Assembly (NCBI RefSeq): GCF_009834125.1
Contig: NZ_CP047146.1
Span: forward strand, 1,171,501-1,235,500
Direction of reading: 5' to 3'
DNA: 64,000 nucleotides
Source of the DNA: Streptomyces sp. GS7
Lineage (GTDB): Bacteria; Actinomycetota; Actinomycetes; Streptomycetales; Streptomycetaceae
Each line of letters begins with the position of its first letter. The first letter of the stretch is position 1. A program made the translations under genes and the position numbers. Below are positions 31,510 to 48,163 of this stretch, piece by piece. Under the pieces are notes generated by a model. The model was given only the letters and a program-made list of their open reading frames with translations, made no database searches and had not been told where the DNA came from.

Positions 31510-31526
31510 GGGCCGGTTGGCCCCCT

Positions 31527-31707
31527 CCCACGTTGTCGGCTGTCCCGCCGTGGGGGTTCTGTTTTTGCGCCTTCGGCGCGGGGTGTTGTCCGCTGCGCGG
31601 GGCTTTCGGGGTGCGGTGACGGTCCTCCGGGGCCGGTGTGCAGGACTGCTTCGCTTTACGTCCTGCACACCGGCCCCTCCGGCCCGTCCCCTCCCGTGGG
31701 TGGTGGG
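31527..31707 (+). repeat. intergenic repeat, copy A
   Basis: First full copy of a repeat family found four times here. It begins CCCACGTTGTCGGCTG, then a TTCG-loop hairpin GCGCCTTCGGCGC (31567-31579), a constant GGTGACGGTCCTCCGG stretch, an 18-bp hairpin (arms 31629-31646 and 31660-31677) around the loop TGCTTCGCTTTAC, and ends CCCTCCCGTGGGTGGTGGG. It starts 18 bp after the DUF445 stop, on the gene's strand. Confidence 0.9.
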
Positions 31708-31807
31708 GAGAAACGGTGGATGGGGGCCGGGCCGAGTGGTCCACTGACGCTTTCCATGCACCCACGAACCGGCACGGTCCCACTCACGCGCACCCCACCC
31801 GCCTTTT

Positions 31808-31986
31808 CCCACCCACCCACGGGAGGGGGCGGGCCGGAGGGGCTGGGTGTCCGGACGTAAAGCGAAGCAGTCCGGACACCCAGCCCCGGAGGACCGTCAC
31901 CGCACCCGACAGCCCCGCGCAGCGGCCCCGCCCGCCGCAGGCGCCACGGCGGCAAACCCCCACGGCGGGTAAGCCGAAAACGTGGG
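31808..31986 (-). repeat. intergenic repeat, copy B (inverted, variant stem)
   Basis: Full copy in reverse orientation, facing copy A with about 100 bp between. The hairpin arms (31839-31856, 31870-31887) read GGGGCTGGGTGTCCGGAC and its complement: six of eighteen stem positions differ from copy A, all compensated. The 13-nt loop (GTAAAGCGAAGCA on this strand) is unchanged. It ends with the CCCACGTTTTCGGCT border at 31986. Confidence 0.9.
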
Positions 31987-32023
31987 AAGTCAGCCCAGCG
32001 CGCAGCGACTAGGCTCGGGCGAC

Positions 32024-32308
32024 GTGCGAAAACGGACCTACGGCGGGAAAGCCGAAAACGTGGGGCGCGGCAAAGCGCAGCGGAACGGCGCAGCGGCCTG
32101 GCTACTGCTGCCCTACGTGCTGTTCCTGGCGGTGCTGCCGCTCGTGAACCGGGTGACGCCGACCGTCGCCGGGCTGCCGTTCCTCTTCTTCTGGATGCTG
32201 CTGGCGACGTTGCTGACGCCGCTCGCGGTATGGCTGGCGTGGCGCGGTGACCTCCGGCGTGCCCGGTCGCAGGCCCCCGGTCCGGCGGACGAGCGGGGGC
32301 GGGGATGA
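32024..32308 (+). CDS. DUF3311 family membrane protein
   Basis: A 94-aa protein with two transmembrane helices (AWLLLPYVLFLAVLPLV and FLFFWMLLATLLTPLAVWLA), the DUF3311 pattern. Such genes lie directly before sodium-solute symporters, as here with a four-base ATGA overlap, and may be an accessory subunit. GTG 32024 is the likely start. Codons 5-24 (TYGGKAENVGRGKAQRNG) are encoded by a fragment of the intergenic repeat, so the N-terminus seems to have been extended or replaced by it. Confidence 0.8.
   Translation: MRKRTYGGKAENVGRGKAQRNGAAAWLLLPYVLFLAVLPLVNRVTPTVAGLPFLFFWMLLATLLTPLAVWLAWRGDLRRARSQAPGPADERGRG
32039..32090 (-). repeat. intergenic repeat fragment, copy E (inside a gene)
   Basis: A partial copy made only of the border module. 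Its GTGGGGCGCGGCAAAGCGCA stretch recurs in copy D (about 48116-48135), and AAAGCCGAAAACGTGGG matches the borders of B and C. It is translated in frame as part of the DUF3311 N-terminus. Confidence 0.75.
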
Positions 32309-33885
32309 ACGCCACCGTCGCCACCACCATCTTCGCCGCCTTCATGGTGCTGACCGTGGCCCTGGGCCTGCTGGCGGTCCGCGGCCGGGGGGCCGCAACA
32401 GAGGGGCAGCCCGAAGGGCTTCCAGGGAAGGGCGGTGGTGGGCGACGGGCGGGCCTTACGGAGTGGTCGGTGGGCGGGCGCAGTCTGGGCACCGTCTTCA
32501 TCTGGGTGCTGATGGCAGGGGAGAGCTACACCAGCTTCAGCTACCTGGGCGCGGCGGGCTGGGGCTACAACTTCGGCGCGCCGGTGCTCTACGTCCTGGC
32601 CTACATGTCGTGCGGCTACGCGATCGGCTATGTCGTCGGGCCGATGCTGTGGGCGTACGCCCGCCGGCACGGTCTGGTCGGCATCACCGACATCGTCGCG
32701 CACCGCTACCGGCGGCCCTGGCTCGGCGCCGCCGTCGCGGTGCTCGCCACCGTGTGCCTGCTGCCGTACATCCAGCTGCAGATCACCGGCATGGGCGTGG
32801 TGGTCTCCACCATCTCCTACGGCGCGATCAGCCTCAACTGGGCCTATTTCATCGGCTTCGCGGTCACCACCGGCTTCGTCGTCGTCAGCGGGCTGCGCGG
32901 CAGCGCCTGGGTGTCGGTGCTCAAGGACCTCCTCGTCATCGTGACGCTGGGCTTCCTGGCGGTCTACGTGCCGCTGCACTACTTCGGCGGCTACGGCCCG
33001 CTCCTGCACCGCATCGTCGCCGAGAAGCCGGGGTGGCTGACCTTTCCGGGCCACCGGTCGGGCGGGCTGGGCCAGGTCTGGTTCATCACCACCACGCTCG
33101 TCAACTCCCTGACGGTGGTGGTCTTCCCGACGACCGTGGCGGGCTATCTCGGCGCCCGCAACGCCGATGCGCTGCGCCGCAACGCGATCTACCTCCCCTT
33201 CTACAACGTCCTGTTGTTCGTGCCGATGCTGTTGGGGCTGGCGGCGCTGTTCGTGGTGCCGGGGCTGGCCGGTGCCGACTCCAACCTGGCGCTGTTCAAG
33301 CTGGTGGTGGACTCGCTTCCGGCCTGGGCGGTGGGCGTCGTCGGGGTGGCCGCGGCGCTCTCCTCCATCGTGCCGATGGCCGTGTTCATGCTGGTCATCG
33401 GCACGATGTGGGGGAGGAGCGTGCTGGGTGCGATCCCCCGGCTGGCGACCCGTCAGAAGCTGTGGTCGCAACTCGTCGTGGTCGCCGCCGGGGGGCTCGC
33501 GCTGGTCCTCACCTACACCGCTCCCACCACCCTCGTACGGCTGTCCCTGATCTCCTACGAGGGGATGGCGCAGCTGGTGCCGATGCTGCTGCTGGGGCTG
33601 GTGTGGCGCCGGTTGACGGTGTACGCGGCGGTGAGCGGCCTGACGGCGGGCTTCGCGCTGGTGTGTGTGCTGGTCTTCGGGGGACACGATCCGGTGTGGG
33701 GGATGAACGCGGGCATCGTCGGCCTCGCGCTGAACGCGGCGGTGGCGCTGACGGTGACTTGGCTGGGTCCGCGGGAGGCGGGCGACGACCGCCCGGACGG
33801 CGAGGTCCTGGCGCTGGACGACGGGTTCCCGCGGGGCGGGGTGCCGGCACCGGGCGGCCCGGTCAGTACGCCGGTGTCGCGGTGA
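32305..33885 (+). CDS. sodium:solute symporter (monocarboxylate/SSS family)
   Basis: A 526-aa transporter with 13 or so helices. SSS features: SVGGRSLGTVFIWVLMAGES near the start, GAAGWGYNFGAPVLYVL, and the conserved region LPYIQLQITGMGVVVSTISY. The C-terminus is a hydrophilic tail. Coupled by ATGA overlap to the DUF3311 gene, an arrangement typical of actinobacterial carboxylate/solute symporters. Substrate not deducible. Its 3' end overlaps the convergent lipoprotein gene by 23 bp. Confidence 0.88.
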   Translation: MNATVATTIFAAFMVLTVALGLLAVRGRGAATEGQPEGLPGKGGGGRRAGLTEWSVGGRSLGTVFIWVLMAGESYTSFSYLGAAGWGYNFGAPVLYVLAYMSCGYAIGYVVGPMLWAYARRHGLVGITDIVAHRYRRPWLGAAVAVLATVCLLPYIQLQITGMGVVVSTISYGAISLNWAYFIGFAVTTGFVVVSGLRGSAWVSVLKDLLVIVTLGFLAVYVPLHYFGGYGPLLHRIVAEKPGWLTFPGHRSGGLGQVWFITTTLVNSLTVVVFPTTVAGYLGARNADALRRNAIYLPFYNVLLFVPMLLGLAALFVVPGLAGADSNLALFKLVVDSLPAWAVGVVGVAAALSSIVPMAVFMLVIGTMWGRSVLGAIPRLATRQKLWSQLVVVAAGGLALVLTYTAPTTLVRLSLISYEGMAQLVPMLLLGLVWRRLTVYAAVSGLTAGFALVCVLVFGGHDPVWGMNAGIVGLALNAAVALTVTWLGPREAGDDRPDGEVLALDDGFPRGGVPAPGGPVSTPVSR

Positions 33886-34927
33886 CGTCCGAACTCGGCG
33901 TGTCACTCGGGGTGTTGCCGCTCGCCGCGCCACTGCTCGACGTGCCGGACGGGGTCTTGGTGTTCTTCTTGCCGTTGTCGGAGACCGCGAACCACAGGCC
34001 CATCTTGCCCTGGCCGTTGATGTCGCCGGGCTGCTTGTCGCCGGTGAACCAGTAGACCGGCCAGCAGTCGATGGCGAGCTGGCGGGTGCCGTCGGGGCGG
34101 GTGACGGTGGAGACGAGGTGCGGGGAGATGCCGTTGAGCTTGGAGCGGTCGGCGGGCTTGGCGGGCTTCCAGGTGTCCAGGCAGGTGTCGTTGCAGCCGA
34201 ACTTCATCGGCCAGGCGCTGTCCTTGTTGAAGCGGTAGAGGGTGCGGCCCATGCCGTCGACGAGGATCTTGCCGAGCTGCGGCTGGGCGAACACCCCTAC
34301 GTCGCCGGGCTGCTGGGTGCCCGCCTTGGTGCCGTCGGAGGCCAGCGCGTGCCAGGTGCCGCCCACGCCGTGGCCCTTGGTGTCGCCGGGCTTGGTGTCC
34401 TTGGCGAAGCGGTAGGCGGGCCAGCCGCCGATGGTCAGCTGCTTGGTGCCGTCGGCGCGGGTGACCGAGCCGAGGGCGTCGGGGGCGATCCCGGCGGGGG
34501 CGGTGGCGCCGTCGGCGGGGACCGGCGGCCAGGTGGTCGCGCAGTCGCCGGAGCAGTTGGAGGTGGGGGGTTTCGCGGTGTCCTTGTCGAAGCGGTAGAG
34601 GGTCATGCCCTGGGCGTCGGTGACGACCGGGCCGAGGGTGTCGGACTGGTGCAGGGCGAGGGCGCCGGCGGGCTTGCCGGCCGCGGCGGGCTTGCCGCTG
34701 TCGCCGCCGGCCTGGCCGCCGTAGCCGCTGGTGGTGCTGCCGTAGCCGGTGCCGTAGTCGCTGCTGCCCTGGCCGGCGGGCTGGACGTTGTCGGTGCCGC
34801 TCCCGGTGCCGGCGGCGTGTCCGCTGCCGTTGCTGCCGCAGGCGGTGGTGAGGGTGAGGGCGGCGGCGAGGGCGGTGACGGCCAGGACGGCGTGCCGCCG
34901 GGCCGAGGGGGGTGTGGTGACGGGCAT
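33863..34927 (-). CDS. surface lipoprotein with four Yx(F/W)xxD repeats (SCO0930-like)
   Basis: A 354-aa lipoprotein: signal peptide with lipobox LTTAC (Cys30), a Gly/Ser/Tyr-rich linker (residues 31-85), then four copies of the COG4315/Lipoprotein_15 repeat. Diagnostic motifs are LYRFDKD, AYRFAKD, LYRFNKD and VYWFTGD, with paired cysteines NCSGDCATTWPP and GCNDTCLDTW. A Ser/Thr/Pro tail follows. The biochemical role is not established; its operon neighbours are redox proteins, so a role in electron transfer at the cell surface is inferred. Confidence 0.88.
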   Translation of the reverse strand: MPVTTPPSARRHAVLAVTALAAALTLTTACGSNGSGHAAGTGSGTDNVQPAGQGSSDYGTGYGSTTSGYGGQAGGDSGKPAAAGKPAGALALHQSDTLGPVVTDAQGMTLYRFDKDTAKPPTSNCSGDCATTWPPVPADGATAPAGIAPDALGSVTRADGTKQLTIGGWPAYRFAKDTKPGDTKGHGVGGTWHALASDGTKAGTQQPGDVGVFAQPQLGKILVDGMGRTLYRFNKDSAWPMKFGCNDTCLDTWKPAKPADRSKLNGISPHLVSTVTRPDGTRQLAIDCWPVYWFTGDKQPGDINGQGKMGLWFAVSDNGKKNTKTPSGTSSSGAASGNTPSDTPSSDVTATPAY

Positions 34928-34940
34928 GGCGAATCTCCTT

Positions 34941-34968
34941 GGGTGAGGGTGAGGGTGGGGGTGAGGGG
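34941..34968 (+). other. G-quadruplex-capable tract before the lipoprotein gene
   Basis: Five runs of three to five G separated by TGA or TGAG (GGGTGAGGGTGAGGGT and on), 14 bp upstream of the lipoprotein start. On the coding strand this is a C-rich leader just before the AAGGAG ribosome-binding site, so a G4 would form on the template strand. Confidence 0.6.
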
Positions 34969-35027
34969 ATGTGGGGGCGGGAGCGTGGGGGATGGGGGAG
35001 TGGGGGGCAACGGGTGGTCGGGGTGGG

Positions 35028-36632
35028 TCAGTTGCCGCTCTGGATGCGGAGGGCGAGGGCCGGGCAGCGGCGTACCGCGAGCTGGGCGCGGCGCCGCATA
35101 CGGGCCGGCAGCGGCATACCGGCCGTCTCGGGGTAGCCGTCCGGGCCGAGCCGGATCATCGCCGGTACCACCTCCGCGCACAGGCCGTGGCCGCGGCACA
35201 GCGTCCAGTCGACCAGCAGCCGTTCGGGCGGCGGGGGCGGTGGCGGGGGTGCCGAGGGCGGCGGCGGGTAGCGGGGCGGGGCGGGGGGTTGCGGCCGGTG
35301 TCCGGTGACCGGGAGCGCTCCGGTCACCGGACGGCCGCACCCGAACCCGTGCGCGTGGCGGTCGAACTCCTCGGGGAAGGCGGCGAGGGCCGATGCCACG
35401 AAGCGCGCGGTACCGTCCGGGTGGCTGCAGGCGCCGCGGCCGCGCACCGCCCGCAGGCGGGCGTGCACGGCCTCCAGGGCGGCGTCCCCGCCACCCCGTA
35501 CGGCGCGGTCGAGCTGGTCGGCGAGGGCGGGAAGACCCAGCACGCAGGGCCCGCACTGCCCGGCGGACTCGGCGGCCATCCAGCGCGCGACCCGTACGGT
35601 CTCGCCCGCCGGGCAGGTGTCGTGGGGCAGCGGCAGGACCGCCCCGGCGCCCAGCACCGCGTCGTGGGCGGCCAGCGCGTCGCGGGAGAGGGTCGCGGTC
35701 CGTGCGGCGTCGGGGGAGAGCCAGGTGCCGTGGTAGCCGCCGAGGAGGACGCCCTGCCCGGCGTCCAGGCCGCAGTGCGTGAGGACCTGGAGCAGCGGCG
35801 TCCCGTAGGCGGCCTCCACGACCTGGCGGCCGGCGACGGTCAGCAGCAGGGTGCCGGGCTCGGTGGGCAGGCCCGCGGTGCGGTAGCCGAGGGCGCCGAG
35901 CCGTGCGGCCAGGGCGAGTTGGGCGTAGGTCTCGGCGTTGGAGAGCAGGGTGGGCAGGCCGTCCAGGCCGCGTTCGCTGGAGCGGACCTTGCGGCCGGAG
36001 GGCAGTGCGGGGCCGCCGGACAGGCCGCCGGTGAGCGCGGTGCCCTCGCCGGTGACGAACCGCTCGGGCAGCCGGGTGACCCGTAACGGCGGCCGGACCG
36101 GGCCGCGTTCGGCGATGGCGCGGCGCACCGAGTCCGCCACGTCCGGGCGGGTCACCCCGATCGCGATCTGCCGGGCGCCGATCGCGCCGGCGGCCAGCAG
36201 CGCGCCGTCCAGTACCAGATGCGGTACGTGCAGCAGCAGCGCGGTGTCCTTGAGGCAACTGGGCTCGCCCTCGCTGCCGTTGACGACCACCGCCGACCTG
36301 CCGTCGGCGCGGCGGATGCCGTCCAGGACGGCGGCCACCTTGCGGGCGAACGGGAAGCCGGCGCCGCCCCGGCCGCGCAGATCGGTGTCCTCGGCCAGCG
36401 CCACCAGCTCCTGCGCGCTCAGCCGGGGCGGCTGGCCGTGCAGCGTCAGATGGGCGACCCGGTCGAGGCGGGGCAGTTCGTCGAGCCCGGCCAGCAGCCG
36501 GGGCGGACCCACGGACGTCAGGCCGGGGAGCGGGGCGGCAACAACGGGGAAGCCAGGGGCGCTTGCGAGGACGGGCAGCCGTGCGGTGTCCGCGGTGGCG
36601 GACAGCGGGTGGGCGGGGGCGGGGGCGGTCAT
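35028..36632 (-). CDS. NuoF-like flavoprotein fused to a ferredoxin domain
   Basis: A 534-aa protein. Residues 55-330 resemble the FMN/NADH-binding part of NuoF (DLRGRGGAGFPFARK, NGSEGEPSCLKD, LLSNAETYAQLA). SAGQCGPCVLGLP with a later CSHPDGT supplies the iron-sulfur region, though the usual cysteine pattern is shortened. After a polyproline linker (about 440-465) comes a small ferredoxin: DWTLCRGHGLCAE and a final RRCPALAL. It probably passes electrons from NAD(P)H to its membrane neighbour. The ATG overlaps the stop of the haem protein gene. Confidence 0.85.
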   Translation of the reverse strand: MTAPAPAHPLSATADTARLPVLASAPGFPVVAAPLPGLTSVGPPRLLAGLDELPRLDRVAHLTLHGQPPRLSAQELVALAEDTDLRGRGGAGFPFARKVAAVLDGIRRADGRSAVVVNGSEGEPSCLKDTALLLHVPHLVLDGALLAAGAIGARQIAIGVTRPDVADSVRRAIAERGPVRPPLRVTRLPERFVTGEGTALTGGLSGGPALPSGRKVRSSERGLDGLPTLLSNAETYAQLALAARLGALGYRTAGLPTEPGTLLLTVAGRQVVEAAYGTPLLQVLTHCGLDAGQGVLLGGYHGTWLSPDAARTATLSRDALAAHDAVLGAGAVLPLPHDTCPAGETVRVARWMAAESAGQCGPCVLGLPALADQLDRAVRGGGDAALEAVHARLRAVRGRGACSHPDGTARFVASALAAFPEEFDRHAHGFGCGRPVTGALPVTGHRPQPPAPPRYPPPPSAPPPPPPPPERLLVDWTLCRGHGLCAEVVPAMIRLGPDGYPETAGMPLPARMRRRAQLAVRRCPALALRIQSGN

Positions 36633-37279
36633 CGGGGCTCGCTTCCTGTGGTGCGGCGCGGGCCGCGCAGCCGCAGGGCGAGCCGTACGGCCACCCCGGC
36701 GAGCGCGATCCCGTATCCCGCCACCGCCCAACCCGCGGCGGCCCGGCCGGACTTGAGGCCGTGCAGCAGGGCCAGCGCCCAGGCGGGGTAGGCGACCGTG
36801 TGCAGCGCCCGCCACCAGCGCGCGGAGCTGCGGCCGGTGAACGCGCCGCGCACCGCCCCGCTCACCGCGACCGCCACGAACCCGTACGCGGCGAGCGTGC
36901 CGAAGCCGATGAGCATCGGTCGCACGCCGTCGGTGAACGGCACCGCGGCGGCCGCCGCCCCGGTCTGCCCCTGGGCGACCTTCACCCAGATGTGCAGGCC
37001 CAGGAAGCCCAGGCCCGCGATGCCGGTGCCGCGGTGCACGGCCTGCGCGAGCAGCCGGTGCGGGGTGTGCAGCACCATCCGGTCCGTGGCGGCCAGCCCC
37101 CACAGGACCGTGGCGGAGAGCGAGACCAGGGCCAGCACCCCGGCGCCGTAGTCCAGGAAGTGCACCGTGCTGTCCATCGCGCCGGAGTGCAGGGTGACGG
37201 CGAGGAAGAGCAGCAGTGCGGCCGGAAGTGCCGGGCGCAGCAGGGTGGTTGGGGCGGAGCGTGGGGGCGGGGCGGGCAT
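36629..37279 (-). CDS. ferric reductase-like / cytochrome b-type membrane protein
   Basis: A 216-aa protein with six predicted helices. Histidines suited to haem b ligation lie in HTPHRLLAQAVHRGTG, LGLHIWVK, LHTVAYPAW and LLHGLKSG. It matches the ferric-reductase-like transmembrane fold but lacks the flavin/NAD domain, which the next gene could supply. GGGAGG lies before ATG 37279. First gene of a three-gene set (haem protein, flavoprotein-ferredoxin, lipoprotein). Confidence 0.82.
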   Translation of the reverse strand: MPAPPPRSAPTTLLRPALPAALLLFLAVTLHSGAMDSTVHFLDYGAGVLALVSLSATVLWGLAATDRMVLHTPHRLLAQAVHRGTGIAGLGFLGLHIWVKVAQGQTGAAAAAVPFTDGVRPMLIGFGTLAAYGFVAVAVSGAVRGAFTGRSSARWWRALHTVAYPAWALALLHGLKSGRAAAGWAVAGYGIALAGVAVRLALRLRGPRRTTGSEPR

Positions 37280-37627
37280 CAGACCTCCCGAGGGCGGGAC
37301 GTAGCAGGTTGCCGTACGCAAATTCCGGCGATATATCCCGGCAGTGGTATTTATTCCGAGGGGCTCCGGGGCATTTGTCCGGACCACTATTCGTGTGACC
37401 CCCGGTAACACTCAACATTCCGTAACCGGCCGGATACTCGCGGCCGTAATCCGGATGACCAAAAGCATCACCGAACCTCCCCTGGATTTCCTGATGTTTA
37501 GCGCGCTGTGACAAATTCCTGCACGTGCGTCGCGGACGTCGGGGAGGACTCCGGATGATGCCGACTCAGGCGCACGCAGGGCGTCAACTCCCTGTCCAGC
37601 CGCATCCCCGCCAGGATCGAGGTAGCG
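37280..37627. promoter_or_regulatory. shared divergent control region, redox cluster / PucR regulator
   Basis: A 348-bp gap between divergent genes. It is less GC-rich than its surroundings, with AT-rich stretches at 37318-37355 and 37480-37510, and likely holds promoters for both directions. No perfect operator-like palindrome was found. Confidence 0.45.
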
Positions 37628-38683
37628 ATGTGTGATCTCCTGAACCGCCTTTGGGCGCAGCCCCGCGGCGAGTGGACCCGGGTCGTGAGAAATGAACTTC
37701 CGGACCTTGTGGAGGAGGTGGTCGCGGAGTTGCAGCGTGGATTTCCGGCAATGGCCGCACTTCTCGGTGACACGCCTGTGGAAGATGCCCAATGGGCGCT
37801 GGAACAGGCACTGCTGACCTGTCTCGGGTACCAGAAATCATCGCAAAGCAAGCCCCCGGCGGTGCCGTCCGTCGTGACCCCGATGCCGGTGGCTCGGGCC
37901 CGTCAGGACCTCTTCGACGTCCTCGCCGGACAGCGCGAGACCCCGGAGGGCGGCCTCGGTGAACTGGCCCGGGCGGCCGGCTGGCCGGTCCCCGACACCG
38001 TCCAGGCCGTGGTCCTCGCCACCCCCGCCGAGGCGCCCCAACTGGCCGCCGCCCTGGGGCACGCGCTCATCGGCAGCGTCGACGGCTACGCCGCCCTCTT
38101 CGTGCCCGACCCGGCGACCCAGACCAGGGCCCGCCTGGAAGCCGCCCTCAAGGGCCGCGCCGCCGCCGTCGGCCATGCCGTCCCCGCCGCGGACGCCGCC
38201 TCCTCGCTGCGCTGGGCGCGCTATCTGCTGTCCCTGGCGCCCGGCCGGGGCGGCCCGGAGACGCGCCCCACGTTCGTCGACGACCACCTCTCGGCGCTGC
38301 TGCTCCTCCAGGACGAGTCGCTGGCCGACGCCCTGACGTCCCGTTGGCTGGGCCCGCTCGCCGAGTTGACGCCGCGTCAGAACGAGCGGCTGGAGGTCAC
38401 CCTGCTGGCCTGGCTGGAGGGCGGCGGCGCCCCCGAGGCCGCCAAGCTGCTGCACGTCCATCCGCAGACCGTCCGCTACCGATTGCGTCAGATCGAGAAG
38501 CTCTTCGGCCCGGCGCTGCGTGATCCGCGGACCCGCTTCGAGCTGGAGATGGCCCTCCGCAGCCGCCGTCTGATGGCCCATGTCCGCAGCCGGCGGGCCC
38601 GCGCCGGCCGCCGGGCGCGCGCGGTGGCGTCCAGTATCCGGCCCCTCGGCATGGCCAGGGAGGCCCGGGTCAACGGCCTGTGA
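37628..38683 (+). CDS. PucR-type helix-turn-helix regulator
   Basis: A 351-aa regulator. The C-terminal HTH_30 domain is clear: LLAWLEGGGAPEAAKLLHVH followed by PQTVRYRLRQIEKLFG. The N-terminal 100 residues are helical and the middle is a GGDEF-like/CdaR-type sensor remnant (VLATPAEAPQLAAALGHALI). It lies divergent from the redox operon, the most likely target. A strong terminator follows. Confidence 0.87.
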   Translation: MCDLLNRLWAQPRGEWTRVVRNELPDLVEEVVAELQRGFPAMAALLGDTPVEDAQWALEQALLTCLGYQKSSQSKPPAVPSVVTPMPVARARQDLFDVLAGQRETPEGGLGELARAAGWPVPDTVQAVVLATPAEAPQLAAALGHALIGSVDGYAALFVPDPATQTRARLEAALKGRAAAVGHAVPAADAASSLRWARYLLSLAPGRGGPETRPTFVDDHLSALLLLQDESLADALTSRWLGPLAELTPRQNERLEVTLLAWLEGGGAPEAAKLLHVHPQTVRYRLRQIEKLFGPALRDPRTRFELEMALRSRRLMAHVRSRRARAGRRARAVASSIRPLGMAREARVNGL

Positions 38684-38711
38684 CGCGCCGGCCGTACCCA
38701 CCGAACACACC

Positions 38712-38758
38712 GTCGGCCGCCGTCCCCGCTCCTTCCCGGAGCGGGGACGGCGGCCGAC
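38712..38758. terminator. strong terminator between convergent genes
   Basis: A perfect 21-bp inverted repeat (arms 38712-38732 and 38738-38758, loop TTCCC) between the stop codons of the PucR-type regulator and the DUF1996 gene. Confidence 0.85.
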
Positions 38759-38770
38759 TGCCGTGCGGGA

Positions 38771-40249: not shown

Positions 40250-40275
40250 GTGGGGATCACTTCGCTTCGTCCGTT

Positions 40276-40409: not shown

Positions 40410-40429
40410 TACCGGGGCCTGCGGCTCCG

Positions 40430-41086: not shown

Positions 41087-41210
41087 GACCGGGACGCTAG
41101 GCGCGGCCGGGGCCGTTCGGCCCCGGATCCTCACCCCTGGACAAATACCGGCCCGCGCCGCCGCGGCCCTGCTAACGTCCCGGTGTGCGCCGCGGGCGGA
41201 TACGCGCTGG

Positions 41211-43100
41211 TCAGCCCGCGTACAGCGCGTCGATCTCGGACGCGTACGCCTTGACGATCGCCGCCCGGCGCAGCTTCAGCGACGGCGTCAGCAGCCCCGC
41301 CTCCTGGCTGAACTCGCCCGGCAGCACCCGGAACGCGCGGATCGACTCGGCGCGCGACACCGCGGCGTTCGCACGGGCCACCGCCCGCCGCACCTCGGCC
41401 TGCAACTCCTCCTCCGGCGACGGCACCCGCGGCGCCGCCCCGGAGCCGTCCGGGTCGCCGTCGCCGGCCGCCGCCTCGATGCGCAGCCGCCGCCAGTGCG
41501 CGAGCGCTTCCGGGTCCAGGGTGATCAGCGCGGCCACGTACGGGCGGTCGTCGCCCACCACCACGCACTGGGAGACCAGCGGATGGGCGCACAGCCGCTG
41601 CTCCAGTGCCTGCGGGGCGACGCTGGAGCCGCTGCTGGTGATGATGACGTCCTTCTTGCGGCCGGTGATGACCAGATAGCCGTCCTCGTCCAGCCGGCCG
41701 AGGTCGCCGGTCGGCAGCCAGCCGCCGTACAGGCCGGGGGAGTTGCCGCGGTAGCCGCCGCCGGTCAGTCCCGTGTCGTCGAGGTATCCGGCGAAGACCA
41801 CCGCCCCGCGCACCCACACCTCCCCGTCCAGCGCCAGGTGCACCGCGCTGCCGGGCAGCGGGCGGCCCACCGTCCCGAACCGCACCCGGCCCGGGGGCTG
41901 GACGGTGATCGCCCCGCTGGTCTCGGTCAGGCCGTAGCCGTCGTAGACGGTGATGCCGGCGCCGGCGTACTGCAGCCCCAGCTCCCGGCGCAGCGGTGAG
42001 CCGCCGGAGACCGCGGTCCGCACCCGGCCGCCCAGCAGCGCGCGGAGGCGGGAGTACACCAGCCGGTCGTAGAGCGCGTGCCGGGCCCGCAGCCACGGGC
42101 CGGGGCCGCGCCCGGTGCCCCGTGCCCGCGCCGCCTGCGCCTCCGCGTGGCGCACCGCCACCGCCATCGCCGCGTCGAACATCCGCCCCCGGCCGGCCTG
42201 TTCGGCGGCCAGCCGGGCGCGGGTGGTGAGCTTCTCGAAGACGTACGGCACCGCGAAGAGGAACGTCGGCCGGAACGACGCCAGCGCCGGCAGCAGTTCC
42301 TCCGACGCCCATTCCGGCTGGTGGCCGAGCAGCACCCCGCCGCGCAGGCACGCCACCTGCACCATCAGCCCGTAGATGTGCGCGAACGGCAGGAACGCCA
42401 GCAGCGAGGGGCGTTCGCCGGGCGCGGCCAGCAGGCCGCCCCAGCCGGCGAGGAGGGTGTCGCACTCGGCGGCCAGGTTGGCGTGGGTGATCACGCAGCC
42501 GCGCGGCCGGCCGGTGGTCCCCGAGGTGTGCACGATCGCGGCGGTGCTGTGCGGGGCGACCGCATGGCGCAGCCGGTGCACCTCCGCCCGGGGCAGCCGG
42601 GTGCCCTCCTCCGTCAGCCGCCGTACGCAGTCCCGGTCCAGCTGCCAGATGCGCCGCAGCGCCGGGTCCCGGTCGGTCGCGTCGCACGCCTCGGCCACCG
42701 TCATCGCCTGCGCCTCGTTCTCGACGACGATCGCCGCCACCCGCGCCCCGGTCAGGATGCACCGCAGCTGCTCGGCCGACGCGGTCGGGTACACCGGCAC
42801 CACATGCCCGCCGATCGCCCACAGCGCATAGCTGAACAGCGTCCACTCGTACCGCGTGCGGGACATCACCGCGACCCTGGTGCCCGGCCGGATGCCGTCC
42901 GCCAGCAGCCCTCTGGCCAGCCCGGTCACCTCGTCGCGGAACGTCGCCGCGGACACCTCGCGCCAGCCACCGGGGGCATCGGCGTCGCGGCGGGCGAGCT
43001 GGGCGAAGTCCGGGCGGTGCGCGGCCGTGTCGAAGACGGAGTCGGCGAGGCCGCCGGTCCGCAGTGGAGCCGCCAGGGCCGGGACGCTGATGTCGCGCAT
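41211..43100 (-). CDS. long-chain acyl-CoA synthetase (AMP-binding)
   Basis: A 629-aa ANL-family ligase that activates a carboxylate through an acyl-AMP. P-loop HTSGTTGRPRGCVITH, YGLTETSGAI, and TGDLGRLDEDGYLVITGRKK are all present, with the catalytic lysine region near the end (TPSLKLRR). Closest to the FadD15-like long-chain group. GAGG lies before ATG 43100. Transcribed alone. Confidence 0.92.
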   Translation of the reverse strand: MRDISVPALAAPLRTGGLADSVFDTAAHRPDFAQLARRDADAPGGWREVSAATFRDEVTGLARGLLADGIRPGTRVAVMSRTRYEWTLFSYALWAIGGHVVPVYPTASAEQLRCILTGARVAAIVVENEAQAMTVAEACDATDRDPALRRIWQLDRDCVRRLTEEGTRLPRAEVHRLRHAVAPHSTAAIVHTSGTTGRPRGCVITHANLAAECDTLLAGWGGLLAAPGERPSLLAFLPFAHIYGLMVQVACLRGGVLLGHQPEWASEELLPALASFRPTFLFAVPYVFEKLTTRARLAAEQAGRGRMFDAAMAVAVRHAEAQAARARGTGRGPGPWLRARHALYDRLVYSRLRALLGGRVRTAVSGGSPLRRELGLQYAGAGITVYDGYGLTETSGAITVQPPGRVRFGTVGRPLPGSAVHLALDGEVWVRGAVVFAGYLDDTGLTGGGYRGNSPGLYGGWLPTGDLGRLDEDGYLVITGRKKDVIITSSGSSVAPQALEQRLCAHPLVSQCVVVGDDRPYVAALITLDPEALAHWRRLRIEAAAGDGDPDGSGAAPRVPSPEEELQAEVRRAVARANAAVSRAESIRAFRVLPGEFSQEAGLLTPSLKLRRAAIVKAYASEIDALYAG

Positions 43101-43266
43101 GGGACCTCCCTCGGGGGGAGGGAAGTTACCGGCAGGTTTCCCGGCTGCCCAGGAGTACGGCTACTCTTGAGCGGAAGTCGACAAGTCTTTGTCGCGGAAC
43201 GAGCCCTGTGCCACCACGCGCCGGGCGCGAACGGCCCACCGGGCCACGGGAAGAGGGGGACGCCGG

Positions 43267-43572
43267 ATGTATCGCATCGTCGACGCCTGGCGCCTCTACA
43301 CCTCCGCGCTGTTCTTCCTCCTCGCCGGACTCCTGCTCGCCCAGAGCGGTCTGACGACCGCGCTGACCGCCGCAGCGACCGCCGCCGCGATCCTGCTGCT
43401 GTGCAGCGCCCTGGCCCTGGCGGCCACCGCCCGCCCGGTTCCCCCTGGCCGCATCCGCACGGCCATCCGCGACCGCGAGCGCCGTACGGCGTTCCTGCCG
43501 CAGCGCGACCCCGACGCCGCCGGCCGGCCGCGCCCGCGAGCACCGGGCCGCGCCCTCCCGACGGCCGCGTAG
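43267..43572 (+). CDS. small membrane protein paired with a YidC paralogue
   Basis: A 101-aa protein, two hydrophobic helices (LFFLLAGLLLAQSGLTTAL, AAILLLCSALALAATA) and a basic, proline-rich tail. It probably belongs to the DUF6412 group found beside YidC-like insertases in Streptomyces; that name is from memory. GAGGGGG lies before ATG 43267. It may be a partner or substrate of the insertase 240 bp downstream. Confidence 0.7.
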   Translation: MYRIVDAWRLYTSALFFLLAGLLLAQSGLTTALTAAATAAAILLLCSALALAATARPVPPGRIRTAIRDRERRTAFLPQRDPDAAGRPRPRAPGRALPTAA

Positions 43573-43810
43573 ACGCCCCGGCACCTCGGCGCAACTCCCG
43601 GGCAGCCCCCGGGATTCACGGGCATTCAGGACTCTTCGCGGGTGTTCGCGGGCACTCACGGCACTTTCGGGCCGGCAGCTCCGCCGCCCCCGCGTGCCTG
43701 CCCGCTCCCGCCCGCCGCCCCCTTTGCCCCGCCCCTGTACCGGTGCGCGTCCACGCCGCTCGTCACGCCGATCCCGTTCCGGCACGACGAGACCCGTGGA
43801 GGGCTCACCC

Positions 43811-44800
43811 ATGTCCGTTTTCGACGTACTCGGCGATGCGCTGGCGCGCGGCGCCGACACCCTCGCCCCGCTCTTCGGCGCCTCGGCCACGGCCGTCGCC
43901 ATCGTCCTGTTCACCCTCGGCGTGCGCGCCGCGCTGCACCCGCTCGCCCGCGCCGCGGCCCGCGGCGAGAAGTCCCGTGCCGCGCTCGCCCCGCAGATCG
44001 CCGCACTCCAGCGCCGGCACCGGGGCGACCGCGAACGGCTCCAGCAGGCCATGACCGAGCTGTACGCCAAGTCCGGCGCCTCGCCGCTGGCCGGCTGCCT
44101 GCCGACCGCGCTCCAAGTGCCGGTCTTCTTCGTGACGTACCGCATCTTCACCAGCGGGAACGCGACCCTGCTCGGCCATACGCTGCTGGGCGCGCCGCTC
44201 GGCGGCAGCTGGCGCCAGGCGCTCGCGGACGGCGGGGTGTTCGGACCGCACGGGCTGGTCTACCTCGGGCTGTTCGCGCTGATCGGGGCGGTCGCCACCT
44301 GGAACTACCGGCGGGCGCGGGCCACGGCGGCGGCCAACCCGGCGCCGGCGGCGGGCCCCGGCGGTACGGCCGTACCCGGTATGGGCACCCTCGCCAAGGT
44401 GATGCCGCTGCTGTCCTTCGGCACGCTGATCACCGTCGCGGTGGTGCCGCTGGCGGCCGGGCTCTACCTGGTGACCTCGACGGCCTGGACCGCGTGCGAA
44501 CGGGCGCTGCTGAACCGGGACCGGAAGCCGGTGCGGGAGCCGGAGTCGGCCCCCGCTCAAGCGCAGGGCCGCACGCCGTCCGGCGGCGGTGCGCGGAAGC
44601 GGGCGCCCAGGACGCGGGCGGCCCGGCAGCAGGCCGCCCGGGCGCGGGCGAACGCCGCCGCGCGGGCGGACCGGGCCGCGAAGCCGGGCGAGGACGGCGG
44701 CCGGGCCGCCACGCCTGGACCGGCGGAACCGGCGGAACCGGCGGATCCGGCGCCCGGATCTTCCTCCGCTGCTGACCAGGCCGTTACTACCCCTCGGTAG
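43811..44800 (+). CDS. YidC/Oxa1-family membrane insertase (paralogue)
   Basis: A 329-aa protein with the Oxa1 core of five helices: ALHPLARAAARGEKSRAALA with the positive cytoplasmic loop, LYAKSGASPLAGCLPTALQV, then FFVTYRIF. It lacks the long signal-type N-terminus of the main YidC and carries an Ala/Arg-rich C-terminal tail of about 95 residues. GGAGGG lies 7 nt before ATG 43811. Probably a second insertase with a narrow client set; not the essential rpmH-linked copy. Confidence 0.85.
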   Translation: MSVFDVLGDALARGADTLAPLFGASATAVAIVLFTLGVRAALHPLARAAARGEKSRAALAPQIAALQRRHRGDRERLQQAMTELYAKSGASPLAGCLPTALQVPVFFVTYRIFTSGNATLLGHTLLGAPLGGSWRQALADGGVFGPHGLVYLGLFALIGAVATWNYRRARATAAANPAPAAGPGGTAVPGMGTLAKVMPLLSFGTLITVAVVPLAAGLYLVTSTAWTACERALLNRDRKPVREPESAPAQAQGRTPSGGGARKRAPRTRAARQQAARARANAAARADRAAKPGEDGGRAATPGPAEPAEPADPAPGSSSAADQAVTTPR

Positions 44801-44939
44801 CGGTCCACTCCGTGGACGGGGGTCTTGCGGACCGGACCCTGTTCTTGGAGGATCGGCCAAAACGCTCGATGGCCGTCCCCCATCGGCCGGCCCTGAAGAA
44901 CCCTTCGGGGCCGACCCTACGACCACGGGAGTTGTGACG

Positions 44940-45797
44940 ATGAAGCTGCTGCGCGTCGGAACGGTGGGGGCGGAACGCCCGGCGCTGCTCGACGACACCG
45001 GCGTCCTGCGGGACCTGTCGGACACGGTGCCGGACATCGACGGCGCACTGCTCGCGGACGACGCGGCGCTGGCCCGGATACGGGCCGCCGCCGCGTCCGG
45101 CGGGCTGCCCGCGCTGGACACCGCCGGGCTGCGCACCGGCCCGCCGGTCGCCCGGATCGGCAAGGTGGTGTGCATCGGGCTGAACTACCACGACCACGCC
45201 CGGGAGACGGGGGCCGCGACCCCCGAGGAGCCGATCATCTTCATGAAGGCCCCGGACACGGTCGTGGGCCCCGACGACCCGGTCCTGGTGCCGCGCGGCA
45301 GCGTGAAGACCGACTGGGAGGTGGAGTTGGCCGTCGTCATCGGCCGTACCGCCCGCTACCTGGAGAGCGACGAGCAGGCGCTCGCGGCGGTGGCCGGGTA
45401 CGCGGTGGCGCACGACGTCTCCGAGCGCGCCTTCCAGATCGAGCGCGGCGGCCAGTGGGACAAGGGCAAGAACTGCGAGACGTTCAACCCGCTGGGCCCG
45501 TGGCTGGTGACCGCCGACGAGGTGCCCGACCCGCAGGCCCTGGGCATCCGGCTGTGGGTCAACGGGGAGCTGAAGCAGGACGGCACGACCGCCGAGCAGA
45601 TCTTCCCGGTGGCCGAAGTGGTCCGCTACGTCAGCCAGTTCATGACGCTCTACCCGGGCGACGTCATCAACACCGGCACTCCGGCCGGGGTCGCGATGGG
45701 ACAGCCCGAGCCGAAGCCGTATCTGCGGGCCGGCGACGTGGTGGAGCTGGAGATCGACGGGTTGGGGCGGCAGCGGCAGTCGCTGCGCTCTGCTTGA
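44940..45797 (+). CDS. fumarylacetoacetate hydrolase family protein
   Basis: A 285-aa metal-dependent hydrolase/isomerase. Core motifs: GLNYHDHARE, EPIIFMKAPDT, and TDWEVELAVVIG with the metal-binding acidic residues, plus GDVINTGTPAGVAMG. The family acts on 2-oxo-enol acids in aromatic degradation or as oxaloacetate tautomerase/decarboxylase; the substrate here is open. Repeat copy C starts 5 bp after its stop. Confidence 0.9.
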   Translation: MKLLRVGTVGAERPALLDDTGVLRDLSDTVPDIDGALLADDAALARIRAAAASGGLPALDTAGLRTGPPVARIGKVVCIGLNYHDHARETGAATPEEPIIFMKAPDTVVGPDDPVLVPRGSVKTDWEVELAVVIGRTARYLESDEQALAAVAGYAVAHDVSERAFQIERGGQWDKGKNCETFNPLGPWLVTADEVPDPQALGIRLWVNGELKQDGTTAEQIFPVAEVVRYVSQFMTLYPGDVINTGTPAGVAMGQPEPKPYLRAGDVVELEIDGLGRQRQSLRSA

Positions 45798-45801
45798 GCT
45801 C

Positions 45802-45984
45802 CCCACGTTTTCGGCTTTCCCGCCGTGGGGGTTGCTCGCTTTTGCGCCTTCGGCGCGGGGTGTTGTCCGCTGCGCGGGGCTTTCGGGGTGCGGTGACGGT
45901 CCTCCGGGGCCGGTGTGCAGGACTGCTTCGCTTTACGTCCTGCACACCGGCCCCTCCGGCCCGTCCCCTCCCGTTGTGGGTGGG
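45802..45984 (+). repeat. intergenic repeat, copy C
   Basis: Full copy, same order as copy A: border CCCACGTTTTCGGCTT, TTCG hairpin at 45844-45856, 18-bp hairpin (45906-45923 / 45937-45954) with loop TGCTTCGCTTTAC, and GGGTGGG end. It starts 5 bp after the FAH-gene stop and is nearly identical to A from 45840 to 45970. Confidence 0.92.
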
Positions 45985-46066
45985 TAAAACCGGTGGGGGT
46001 GCACGTAGGGGGACGGTGCGGGCCCATGGGTGGAAGAAACCGTCACCGGACCCCCGCACCGCTTCC

Positions 46067-46309
46067 TCATGGCGTGCCGTCCTGACGCTCGGCGTCGCTG
46101 CCCGTTGCCCGTACGGCGTCGACGCACGCGGTCAGACCACGCAGCAGCTCCGCGAGGTCTTCCTCGCTCAGCTCGTCCATCCACGCGGTACGGGCCTTGA
46201 GTTCCGCCCGCACGAGGTCGAGTTGCCGGTAAGGTTCCCGATACCTGACGTGCCGGTTCCACGCCTCCTCGGCCCAGTGGCACCACCGCGACCATGCGCC
46301 CGCGCTCAT
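46067..46309 (-). CDS. small protein, third gene of a mini-operon
   Basis: An 80-aa soluble protein, helical, Trp- and Arg-rich (WSRWCHWAEEAWNRHVRYRE, then LDLVRAELKARTAWMDELSE). Its ATG at 46309 overlaps the stop of the preceding gene by four bases. No recognised domain. Members of this kind accompany XRE/DUF397 loci in Streptomyces. Confidence 0.65.
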   Translation of the reverse strand: MSAGAWSRWCHWAEEAWNRHVRYREPYRQLDLVRAELKARTAWMDELSEEDLAELLRGLTACVDAVRATGSDAERQDGTP

Positions 46310-46512
46310 GTGCGCACCGCCTTCGCGTGGGGGTGCCGACGGATCTCGACGTTGCGGTCGATCACCGTCGTCATGTCTCCGACGGCACGCGCCACCGCAC
46401 GCTGCTGGGCCAGGGCGGCGCACACGTCGCACCCGGCAGCGGGCTCGGGCTCGGGCTCGGGCACCGGAACCGGGTCCGGCAGGTGAACGGGGCGGCAGTT
46501 GCGGGGCGTCAA
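46306..46512 (-). CDS. small protein, second gene of a mini-operon (TTG start)
   Basis: A 68-aa protein, with a Pro/Glu repeat (PVPVPEPEPEPA) and then CDVCAALAQQRAVARAVGD, giving a CxxC pair. A TTG start at 46512 fits best: it overlaps the preceding stop as TTGA, with GGAGG seven bases upstream. Function unknown; the CxxC could bind metal or be redox-active. Confidence 0.6.
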   Translation of the reverse strand: MTPRNCRPVHLPDPVPVPEPEPEPAAGCDVCAALAQQRAVARAVGDMTTVIDRNVEIRRHPHAKAVRT

Positions 46513-46622
46513 CTCACCACCTCCAGATGGTGAATCCGGCGCGGTCCGGCGTAGGTTCCGTGCGCCGCGAGCCACAGAGCCCGCAAAAGCAGTTCGGAGA
46601 GCCACAGGCTGCGTTTGCGCAT
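46509..46622 (-). CDS. 37-aa peptide, first gene of a mini-operon
   Basis: A very short gene: MRKRSLWLSELLLRALWLAA and on to HHLEVVS. It has a strong AGGAGG eight bases before its ATG at 46622 and its stop overlaps the next start. It is amphipathic/hydrophobic and basic at the N-terminus. The coupling of three tiny genes by four-base overlaps supports it being translated. Confidence 0.6.
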   Translation of the reverse strand: MRKRSLWLSELLLRALWLAAHGTYAGPRRIHHLEVVS

Positions 46623-46737
46623 GTCGTCAACCTCCTGGTGGTTGGTTGCCGCGCCCCGGGCCGTGCGGTCGGTCGCCGGGGTCTTTCGCGTTCTGGTGGA
46701 GGCATCAACTCACCACAGAACCAGTAGCCTTGAGAGG

Positions 46738-46758
46738 CTTGACCACGCGGCAGTCAAG
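46738..46758. promoter_or_regulatory. inverted repeat before the XRE regulator gene
   Basis: CTTGAC and GTCAAG separated by 9 bp, 53 bp upstream of the XRE start and in the divergent gap. A candidate autoregulatory operator; the TTGAC could also be part of a -35 box. Confidence 0.45.
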
Positions 46759-46810
46759 TACAGCCCTGGCGTCTGATCGTTCAGCGCCGGCATAGGGGGA
46801 GGTCAGAGGG

Positions 46811-47635
46811 GTGGCCGAGGACGAACGGCTGGGGTACTTGACTCCGCTGCAGCGCTTTGGGGCAACGGTCAGAGACGTGCGCACGGGTCGGAAGATCACG
46901 CAGAAACACCTTGGGACGTATGCCGGTTATTCAGAGGCGTATGTGTCAAAGGTTGAAAAGGGCACGATGAAGCCCTCTCAACGGTTCGCGGAGAAGTGCG
47001 ACTGCGTGTTTCAGACACGCGGCATGTTTGTGCGACTGCTCGGAGACATTGAACGCGACGACAACCCCTCGTGGTTTGTGCCGTATCTCGAAAGAGAGCG
47101 GGAGGCGTCGCGGGTTCTCGACTTCTCAACAACGAGCATCATGGGGATTTTTCAGACCGAGGAGTACGCGCACGCCGTCTTCCGCGCGGGGCATCCGCGT
47201 GAGTCCGCAGAATTTATACACACCAAGGTGGGCGCACGTCTAAGGCGACGCGACATCCTGACTCAGGATAACCGGCCACTGGTTTGGGTTGTGCTTCACG
47301 AGGCTTGTTTGCGCACAGTAGTAGGTGGAACTGCCGTAATGGCCGCGCAACTTGATCACCTCGTCTTGTCGGCCGAATCGCCGAGTGTGGACTTTCAGGT
47401 CGTGCCGTTTTCTGTCGGAGCTGCGGCGGCACATGTCCCGGCGTTTACTCTGCTTACCTTTGGCGAGGATCCCAGCGTTGTGTACTCGGATGATCCGCAG
47501 GGAGGGCGACTTTACCAACAACCCGAAACCGTGGCTCTCTTCTCGGAGCATTACGATCGGCTGAGGTCACACGCGTTGGCGCCCACTGACTCACTTACCT
47601 TTATCGACAAAATCCGCAAGGAGTATCTGTCATGA
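46811..47635 (+). CDS. XRE helix-turn-helix regulator with DUF5753
   Basis: A 274-aa protein. N-terminal HTH (FGATVRDVRTGRKITQKHLG, AGYSEAYVSKVEKGTMKPSQ) followed by the DUF5753 ligand-type domain (LEREREASRVLDFSTTSIMG, IFQTEEYAHAVFR). Streptomyces have dozens of these, usually followed by DUF397 genes, as here with an ATGA overlap; some affect development and antibiotic production. Base composition is clearly lower in GC than its neighbours, with many A/T third positions, a sign of transfer. Confidence 0.9.
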   Translation: MAEDERLGYLTPLQRFGATVRDVRTGRKITQKHLGTYAGYSEAYVSKVEKGTMKPSQRFAEKCDCVFQTRGMFVRLLGDIERDDNPSWFVPYLEREREASRVLDFSTTSIMGIFQTEEYAHAVFRAGHPRESAEFIHTKVGARLRRRDILTQDNRPLVWVVLHEACLRTVVGGTAVMAAQLDHLVLSAESPSVDFQVVPFSVGAAAAHVPAFTLLTFGEDPSVVYSDDPQGGRLYQQPETVALFSEHYDRLRSHALAPTDSLTFIDKIRKEYLS

Positions 47636-47838
47636 CGTTGACCGAGGCTGTCTGGGAGAAATCTTCCTACAGCGGCTCAAGTGGCGGGCAATGCATAGAG
47701 TTCTCCCGTGCGTTCGCCCCATCCGGACTCATTCCCGTCCGCGACTCAAAGGTCCCTTCCGGACCCGCGCTGATCTTCCCTGTCTCGCAGTGGTCGGCAT
47801 TCATCGAGTCGGTGAAGGATGACGCATTCACGGCCTAG
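47632..47838 (+). CDS. DUF397 protein
   Basis: A 68-aa protein with the family phrase WEKSSYSGSSGGQCIEFS and a C-terminal ALIFPVSQWSAFIESVKD. DUF397 proteins work with, and probably antagonise, the XRE/DUF5753 partner encoded directly upstream. Also of lowered GC. Confidence 0.9.
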   Translation: MTLTEAVWEKSSYSGSSGGQCIEFSRAFAPSGLIPVRDSKVPSGPALIFPVSQWSAFIESVKDDAFTA

Positions 47839-47848
47839 CACACGCGCG

Positions 47849-47885
47849 ACGGCCACCGTCCAACGCCACCACGGAGGGTGGCCGT
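47849..47885 (+). terminator. hairpin after the XRE/DUF397 pair
   Basis: Arms ACGGCCACC (47849-47857) and GGTGGCCGT (47877-47885) with a 19-nt loop, 11 bp after the DUF397 stop. Confidence 0.6.
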
Positions 47886-47956
47886 TCGCATGCCCGCGAG
47901 CGCCAGAGTGGCGGCGAGCTTTGACCACCGGACAGAAGCCGGGATCCCCTTCTATT

Positions 47957-48163
47957 CCCCCACCCGCGGGAGGGGACGGGCCGGAGGGGCCGGTGTGCAG
48001 GACGTAAAGCGAAGCAGTCCTGCACACCGGCCCCGGAGGACCGTCACCGCATCCCGAAAGCCCCGCGCAGCGGACCCCGCCCGCCGCAGGCGCAACGGCG
48101 TCGCAGCCAAAAACGTGGGGCGCGGCAAAGCGCAGCGAAACGGTGGGTCAGCCGACAACGTGG
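47957..48163 (-). repeat. intergenic repeat, copy D (with extra border module)
   Basis: Full copy in reverse orientation; hairpin arms 47986-48003 and 48017-48034 identical to A and C, loop GTAAAGCGAAGCA on this strand. Its border region is longer: two CCCACG modules in tandem with CGCGGCAAAGCGCAGCG between. The outer border overlaps the 3' end and stop codon of the haem-degrading-domain gene. Confidence 0.9.

Follow-up and report, generated by a model that had tools for sequence, protein, structure and literature searches.

Palindromic repeats in one group of Streptomyces look like gene-end spacers maintained by recombination

Are the structured repeats that recur in two clusters of the window analyzed here, a 64,000-nt stretch of Streptomyces sp. 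GS7 (genome G000), mobile DNA, a REP-like element, or traces of a duplicated block? A sequence-only reading had marked four full copies (A–D) and one fragment (E), could put no known name to them, and had proposed searching this and other Streptomyces genomes for further copies and for empty sites. All five pieces lie where it placed them (Table 1) and the repeats are real; the four copies, however, are halves of two composites (A+B and C+D), each near-palindromic and built of two inverted arms of ~180 bp that flank a variable centre. Four perfect copies of the tip GGACTGCTTCGCTTTACGTCC are present, and the edge module is found four times with 0–2 mismatches (in A, B, E and C), the two edge modules of D being more diverged; in the shuffled window, the mean number of occurrences was 0.00 for both patterns. 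The edge modules stand inverted at both composite ends, as terminal inverted repeats, and most composites contain two distinct arm types. In composite 1, the inverted arms 31609-31712 and 31804-31907 are 85% complementary; in composite 2, the arms 45853-45973 and 47967-48087 are 95% complementary across an interval of 1993 nt, A/B and C/D thus forming mirror halves.

Table 1. Coordinates of the composites and associated features within the window
Feature	Position	Strand	Remarks
Left arm A, composite 1	31525..31712	+	Edge module 31525-31558; small GC hairpins; tip hairpin 31615-31691; tip 31643-31663 (+)
Centre, composite 1	31713..31803	.	Largely alignable across 8 aligned G000 composites
Right arm B, composite 1	31804..31988	-	Tip 31853-31873 (-)
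E, solitary edge module	32037..32090	-	In frame, 5' coding end of predicted gene 32024-32308 (+)
Left arm C and part of centre, composite 2	45781..46052	+	Outer submodule with last codons and TGA stop of predicted gene 44940-45797; tip 45920-45940 (+)
Cassette between composite 2 arms, ~1.9 kb	46053..47950	.	HTH/DUF5753 and DUF397 genes
HTH + DUF5753 regulator gene in cassette	46811..47635	+	PF19054, 1.2e-49
DUF397 gene in cassette	47632..47838	+	PF04149, 2e-19
Right arm D, composite 2	47957..48168	-	Two edge modules; outermost with stop 48148-48150 (- strand) of convergent predicted gene 48148-48651; tip 48000-48020 (-)

The cassette of composite 2 is not present in the same composite of genomes G215 and G335. 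The earlier description of the repeats as intergenic and free of open frames needs qualification: E lies in frame at the coding start of the predicted gene that follows (its site in G215 holds four tandem 15-codon copies), and the outer modules of C and D supply the final codons and the stops of both flanking predicted genes. Gene ends, here and in the counts below, are predictions by our in-house codon-usage gene finder, not annotation. Because the repeat provides C-terminal codons and stops, it could mislead automatic gene calling.

Each arm contains a long hairpin with covarying stems, in which 1173 of 1260 pairs, counted over 90 distinct stems, are Watson-Crick. The DNA folding of 31520-32095 gave z = -19.9, and the RNA folding of unit C gave z = -4.6. 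While the stem covaries, the loop UGCUUCGCUUUAC and its closing GGAC/GTCC are mostly constant, a pattern that speaks for an RNA element, in which the arm would act as a structured 3' UTR and a protein or small RNA binding its loop would control the upstream message. However, the remaining stem pairs show no wobble preference (11 G-T versus 18 C-A, p=0.26), for which reason selection on the stem at the RNA level was dropped, and Rfam yielded no match reaching the gathering score; 18 sub-threshold matches (17 microRNA-type, one viral packaging hairpin) were taken as chance. Nor is the tip universal, a short GGACTNCGTCC tip being found in the copies of G090 and in several of those of G137. The GTDB loci were retrieved by the exact tip, and the constancy of the tip among them is therefore a product of this way of choosing them.

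Beyond the window, scoring the best 40 of 94 first-look candidates gave at least 51 repeat matches at no fewer than 21 places spread over the G000 chromosome, both numbers being lower bounds. No two of these places share sequence over more than about 600 bp, which is the length of the repeat itself. It follows that the copies do not belong to one recently duplicated block or a local tandem artefact, a reading that the mutual identity of arms A, C and D (94–96%, all inside 17 kb) would favor, but that the spread of places, the ~600-bp limit and the occupation of the same sites in other species leave with next to no probability. The close likeness of A, C and D fits local gene conversion.

In a survey of 150 sampled genomes of the genus, with the best five candidates scored per genome, five carried the repeat at E<=1e-10, the genome of the window included; over this and further searches, the carriers other than G000 include, among the matches listed, G215, G335, G064, G137 and G086 (G215 and G086 being drafts). 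Many draft contigs end in the repeat. Phage records gave no match, and the one matching record in the plasmid collection is a 2.8-Mb linear replicon of Streptomyces sp. BHT-5-2; a phage- or plasmid-borne element was thus rejected. We read the family as a chromosomal one specific to one clade, a single group of Streptomyces. One repeat copy has an inserted island that encodes Cas1. In G335, the island's relative lies within different sequence; we therefore claim no specificity and rejected provirus targeting of the repeat.

The distribution of occupied sites bears directly on whether these repeats move. Nineteen of 20 places compared are filled in both G000 and G215, and all of the at least 19 places found in G215 (from the best 40 of 146 candidates, again a lower bound) are places of G000; the one G000 place of 21 outside this comparison, 7395, is filled in G335. 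At place 5605, the element of G000 is matched in G215 by a spacer of ~296 bp that lacks it. In G335, the repeat adjoins the right-hand gene at 5605, so that a loss in G215 is just as likely as a gain in G000. In a tree of 11 genomes built on one gene, the species occupied at C-D were not resolved as one group or several.

We considered whether the repeat is a selfish, functionless element of the non-autonomous MITE or REPIN type, moved by a hairpin-reading enzyme and surviving in convergent gaps since it is harmful elsewhere. Its many places in G000, its patchy occurrence in the genus, the free variation of the stem beneath a mostly unchanged tip, the existence of full and half forms, and the filled and empty states of place 5605 are what this reading can call upon. 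The near-complete sharing of places with G215 and the G335 repeat at 5605 argue against it, as does the outcome of the transposase search: genome-wide, with PF01797 (Y1_Tnp) as the only profile and with the genes between arms examined in a few split composites, there were 0 matches in the carriers G215, G335, G064, G137 and G086, and 3 in G000 only. A RAYT-driven REP was rejected, as its defining gene was not found in those five carriers. By eye, the composite ends show no target duplication, a comparison made with no near-identical empty site at hand. Of the two possibilities raised by the sequence-only reading, a non-autonomous mobile element thus finds no support at present, whereas the likeness to REP in form and location stands. 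We consider selfish movement a doubtful account, although one to be kept in mind.

The gene setting is distinctive. Thirty of 44 distinct composites lie in convergent gaps, as compared with 45 of 427 repeat-free control gaps of >= 60 bp (Fisher 9e-17; three duplicate composites and, from the gene-setting count, 55 elements without usable flanking genes were left out). Half arms were never found in divergent gaps (0 of 57). The edge module was recognizable in 148 distinct arms drawn from 218 tip matches; 140 of these have a nearby outer gene, and in 116 that gene reads into the arm, with a median of 4 bp from edge to stop (69 arms within -12..+8; full range -19 to 114). For 24 arms the nearest outer gene points away (12–275 bp), and eight arms have no nearby outer gene. 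Copies that abut stops with almost no spare spacer are unlike random insertions, a further point against a selfish element. That 116 of 140 arms stand in the sense direction behind the stop of a gene also accords with the RNA element described above; half arms in codirectional gaps, however, show no orientation bias (16 sense versus 12 antisense), and together with the absent wobble preference this leaves the RNA element improbable to us. Judged by sequence and position, the repeats look like gene-end spacers maintained by recombination rather than jumping DNA, and probably insulate gene 3' ends.

A scan of composite 1 for terminators found two overlapping weak sites on one strand only, with 0.6 expected, and a sigma-70 scan of the same composite gave no match. 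T/A runs flank both sides of 17 of 55 centres and neither side of another 17; this survey left out four of the 59 centres, which were too short or contained N, and 26 of 59 composites without clear edges or genes. The classical bidirectional U-tract terminator is therefore not general, and a central terminator of this kind was not upheld as a feature of the family.

In three of four genomes, the copies of one genome resemble each other more closely than they do their same-site counterparts in a more distant species. Identity between arms of the same type at other sites of the same genome is 0.889 in G000 (n=155), 0.922 in G215 (n=94) and 0.891 in G335 (n=16), whereas arms of the same type at the same site in G000 and G335 share 0.768 (n=7). 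Between G000 and G215, same-site arms share 0.904 (n=18) and other-site arms 0.888 (n=242). In G064, identity among copies of the same type reaches only 0.795 (n=9), and homogenization is thus not shown there. These counts comprise 62 of 74 arms, the 12 others belonging to the diverged places 660, 8243, 852 and 6074 and two more. Places 660 and 8243 have site-specific stems common to G000 and G215, which we take as plain vertical descent. The family as a whole is best read as place-stable between species and homogenized by recombination.

Composites also turn over in place. At two of seven comparable two-armed places, stems and centre are inverted between G000 and G215; places AE and 1579 are also inverted relative to G335. 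In the comparison of G000 with G215, AE shows exchanged arms, its centre not being clearly flipped. The gene enclosed by two arms at place 852 runs opposite to its G215 counterpart and, across a shorter segment, to that of G335; G048 has this gene in the other orientation as well. Such inversions, and a structure that is more conserved than the stem sequence, could suggest that the arms are hairpin recombination sites, comparable to attC sites or invertons, between which a recombinase flips the centre or gene. Yet the inversions are seen across species only and might be products of ordinary homologous recombination, genes occur in few composites, and no recombinase was linked to the repeat in a search limited to Y1_Tnp; we regard site-specific inversion as quite unlikely, more so than the RNA element.

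The account that we favor, with about even confidence, is a chromosomal family of gene-end repeats of REPIN- or BIME-like build without RAYT, kept alike by recombination and retained for shielding 3' ends. The copies would be kept alike by ectopic gene conversion and by crossing-over from arm to arm, and the same exchanges may flip composites and convert full forms to half forms and the reverse. GC hairpins stacked right behind the two stops of a convergent gene pair would end or trim the transcripts of both genes, and composites would be retained because each gene is shielded from the read-through of the other. A bolder form, which we offer tentatively, is that the family represents a class of bacterial repeat not described before, one marked by its tie to stop codons. 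Such a RAYT-free hairpin cassette would fill the convergent spacer from stop to stop, could give the last codons and the stop, would be place-stable across species while being overwritten through recombination with sister copies, and would flip in place, possibly with the help of a factor that recognizes the GGAC-TGCTTCGCTTTAC-GTCC tip.

No published name or description of the repeat was found in the titles and abstract openings searched, which included little subscription literature; with Rfam equally silent, the earlier statement that the element has no known name stands. For the best-known palindromic repeats of bacteria, the explanation is a transposase. Rickettsia palindromic elements are short repeat modules tolerated in frame inside proteins, as E is in a predicted protein, although here just the 45-bp edge module is in frame, in the one gene seen. 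Pneumococcal BOX elements are modular intergenic repeats with hairpins, and by description the present repeat is similar in both respects but differs in host and modules. Like intrinsic bidirectional terminators, it occupies convergent gaps with strong GC hairpins; unlike them, it forms a family with shared sequence and has two-sided T-runs in a minority of centres. BIMEs are mosaics of REP units, and the present repeat likewise combines inverted palindromic units with linkers in a mosaic, although its sequence and size differ and its composites mostly pair two distinct arm types. Gene conversion was reportedly proposed for REP by Higgins in 1988.

REP sequences and REPINs, as portrayed in PMC8049555, are intergenic palindromic units that occur as singlets, doublets and inverted pairs with a variable spacer and persist for long times; the present repeat is also palindromic, extragenic and often an inverted doublet. 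It differs in that its arm measures ~180 bp, rather than the 20–40 bp given for a REP unit in PMC3733652, whose title also names the GTAG or CGTC tag that lies beside the REP hairpin. On REP and stop codons, nothing on point was found in the titles and abstract openings. Since the edges lie within a few bases of stops, the old question of 3'-end formation by REP becomes directly testable by deleting arms. Further differences from REP and REPINs are that the edges of the present repeat are fixed to stop codons, that its arms are modular, and that the five other carriers lack a Y1/RAYT gene; with fixed places and homogenization in three genomes, this makes the family a natural test of ectopic gene conversion in Streptomyces.

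The four full repeat copies and the edge-module fragment (E, 32037-32090) described in the sequence-only reading were all found in the window. Their sequences stood; their separateness did not, as A and B form the two inverted arms of one composite and C and D those of a second. In the source genome (G000, 9.07 Mb), a search with unit C, in which 40 of 94 candidates were scored, yielded no fewer than 51 matches, which fall at 21 places. Eight two-armed places aligned to a single layout, consisting of a left arm, a centre of roughly 100 bp and an inverted right arm, with edge modules starting CTTCCCACGTTNTCGGC closing both ends; most arms contain one to three such modules per side. The flanks of these places are unrelated, since alignments between places stop at about 600 bp or less.

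Each arm runs from an optional submodule, CGCTGCGCTTGGCTGGC, through the edge module and small GC hairpins to a long hairpin and CCCCTCCGGCCCGTCCCCTCCCGT. The long hairpin closes on GGAC-TGCTTCGCTTTAC-GTCC. Exceptions are the copies in G090 and several of those in G137, which have a short GGACTNCGTCC there instead. Of the 1260 pairs in 90 distinct stems (14 per stem), 1173 are Watson-Crick, and 48 stems are perfect; the 11 G-T and 18 C-A pairs do not point to wobble tolerance at the RNA level (p=0.26). G000 and G215 have two stem types in common, as a rule one on each arm, while G335 and G064 have versions of their own.

Flanking genes, predicted at all fetched loci with a simple codon-usage gene finder, place the repeats at gene ends. 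Among elements with usable flanking genes (55 others were left out), the 44 composites, counted after removal of three duplicates, lie in 30 convergent, 12 codirectional and 2 divergent gaps, and the 57 half arms in 29, 28 and 0, respectively; of the 427 gaps of 60 bp or more that lack the repeat in the same loci, only 45 are convergent. An edge module could be recognised in 148 distinct arms (from 218 tip matches in all); for these, the nearest outer gene reads into the arm in 116 cases and points away in 24, with none present in 8. Where the gene reads in, the median distance from the edge, submodule included, to the stop codon is 4 bp (range -19 to 114), and in 69 of the 116 arms the edge lies within -12 to +8 of the stop; for genes pointing away, the distance is scattered (12-275 bp). 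The outer modules of C-D contain the final codons, stop included, of each predicted flanking gene. The module at E is part of the reading frame at the beginning of a predicted small membrane-protein gene, putatively DUF3311-like; it occurs once there in G000 and as four tandem in-frame copies in G215. At window 31510-32110, repeat-less relatives (L076, L079, L083, L084) have, by inspection, a sortase-like gene with the same two neighbours; where the repeat is present this gene is absent, and G390 lacks both.

In E. coli, REP sequences affect transcription termination and the lifetime of mRNAs. Converging gene ends, stop-codon abutment and stacked hairpins suggest a probable role at gene 3' ends for the repeats described here, where they would end or trim transcripts and shield converging genes from one another. 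A classical bidirectional terminator does not appear to be a general feature, because T-runs flank only 17 of 55 composite centres on both sides and a simple terminator scan of composite 1 found little.

The places are stable between species. In G215, the closest of ten relatives compared (96.3% in one flanking gene), 19 of 20 G000 places compared are filled, and all 19 G215 places found coincide with G000 places; G335 and G064 have the repeat at some of these places too. At the sole exception, place 5605, the G000 element spans stop codon to stop codon, and G215 has a spacer of ~296 bp with no good match in the loci compared; the repeat in G335 adjoins the right-hand gene, which makes a loss in G215 no less probable than a gain in G000.

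The sequences behave differently. In an identity count that omits 12 of 74 arms, the identity of same-type arms at different places within one genome was 0.889 in G000 (n=155), 0.922 in G215 (94), 0.891 in G335 (16) and only 0.795 in G064 (9). Between species, same-site identity hardly exceeded other-site identity for G000-G335 (0.768, n=7, versus 0.761, n=97) and G000-G215 (0.904, n=18, versus 0.888, n=242). Judged from these identities, copies track genome more than place in G000, G215 and G335; G064 does not show this. Places 660 and 8243, among those omitted, oppose homogenisation, having their own stems common to G000 and G215. The near-identity of C to A and D is as would be expected from local gene conversion.

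Of seven comparable two-armed places, 2778 and 8206 are wholly inverted between G000 and G215 (stems and centre) and four are unchanged; at AE, the arms are swapped and the centre is not clearly flipped. Comparison of G000 with G335 shows inversion at AE and 1579. At CD, both G000 arms have the same stem type, while G215 and G335 each combine the two types, one in the reverse order of the other. Place 852 (L103, G000:C1:852344-853932) holds a single gene, SDR-like by inspection, enclosed by inverted arms. Relative to both flanks, this gene is inverted against G215 (1.1 kb aligned), G335 (about 0.55 kb, 75%) and G048, and because all three have it the other way round, the G000 order looks derived.

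Features located in the window and in compared loci
Feature	Location	Strand	Remark
HTH/DUF5753 + DUF397 gene cassette	window 46053-47950		between arms C and D, about 1.9 kb
Cas1 island	L101:2974-18770 (G000:C1:about 3101973-3117769)		inside right arm of one repeat copy
Degraded Cas1-island relative	L122 (G335:C1:3598843-3602328)		truncated Cas1 beside PolB remnant, by inspection
Guanidine-III riboswitch	window 21894-21953	+	Rfam

The C-D composites of G215 and G335 have no HTH/DUF5753 + DUF397 cassette, so it either arrived later in G000 or was lost in the other two. Cassette parts match elsewhere in other genomes, and a terminator-like sequence after it resembles, by eye, one in the Cas1 island ends. 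This island (about 15.8 kb, 60% GC, 144-bp terminal inverted repeats) encodes a solo Cas1, a PolB-like protein whose match falls below the Pfam cut-off, a packaging-type ATPase (PHROGs), HTH/DUF5753 and, by inspection, a DUF397-like ORF; no capsid protein was identified in it. G215 has a repeat at this place without the island. The island looks like a low-GC provirus or casposon-like element, resembling published Cas1-encoding tectivirus-like proviruses; Toil-like proviruses that encode Cas1, from S. noursei and S. albulus, are treated in passages of PMC5894146, and the casposon paper PMC4046053 features a Streptomyces albulus island. Since the left end of the degraded relative does not lie within a recognisable repeat, such islands do not depend on the repeat as their target.

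In a genus sample, 5 of 150 genomes, the source included, had matches at E<=1e-10. Scanning GTDB contigs for exact copies of the tip gave at least 120 stretches; among the matches listed, all titles but one are Streptomyces (lydicus, nigrescens, albospinus, kronopolitis, sioyaensis, albireticuli, eurocidicus and others). The one listed outside the genus, an Acidothermaceae MAG contig (L223), could be contamination or chance. The phage records searched gave no match, and the plasmid collection gave one record, a 2.8-Mb linear replicon. Draft contigs L146, L159, L172, L176, L182, L187 and L193 stop no more than a few hundred bases from the repeat, an indication that it interrupts assembly.

No Rfam family fits the repeat, and the paper searches turned up no description of it. 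REPINs depend on RAYT transposases. They are the closest known kind, sharing the form of inverted units with a variable spacer, as a passage of PMC8049555 presents it; the same source cites the E. coli effects of REP mentioned above. The Streptomyces units are far longer, however, and Y1_Tnp is absent from the carriers G215, G335, G064, G137 and G086. For these two reasons we do not class the family as REPIN, yet it works like one.
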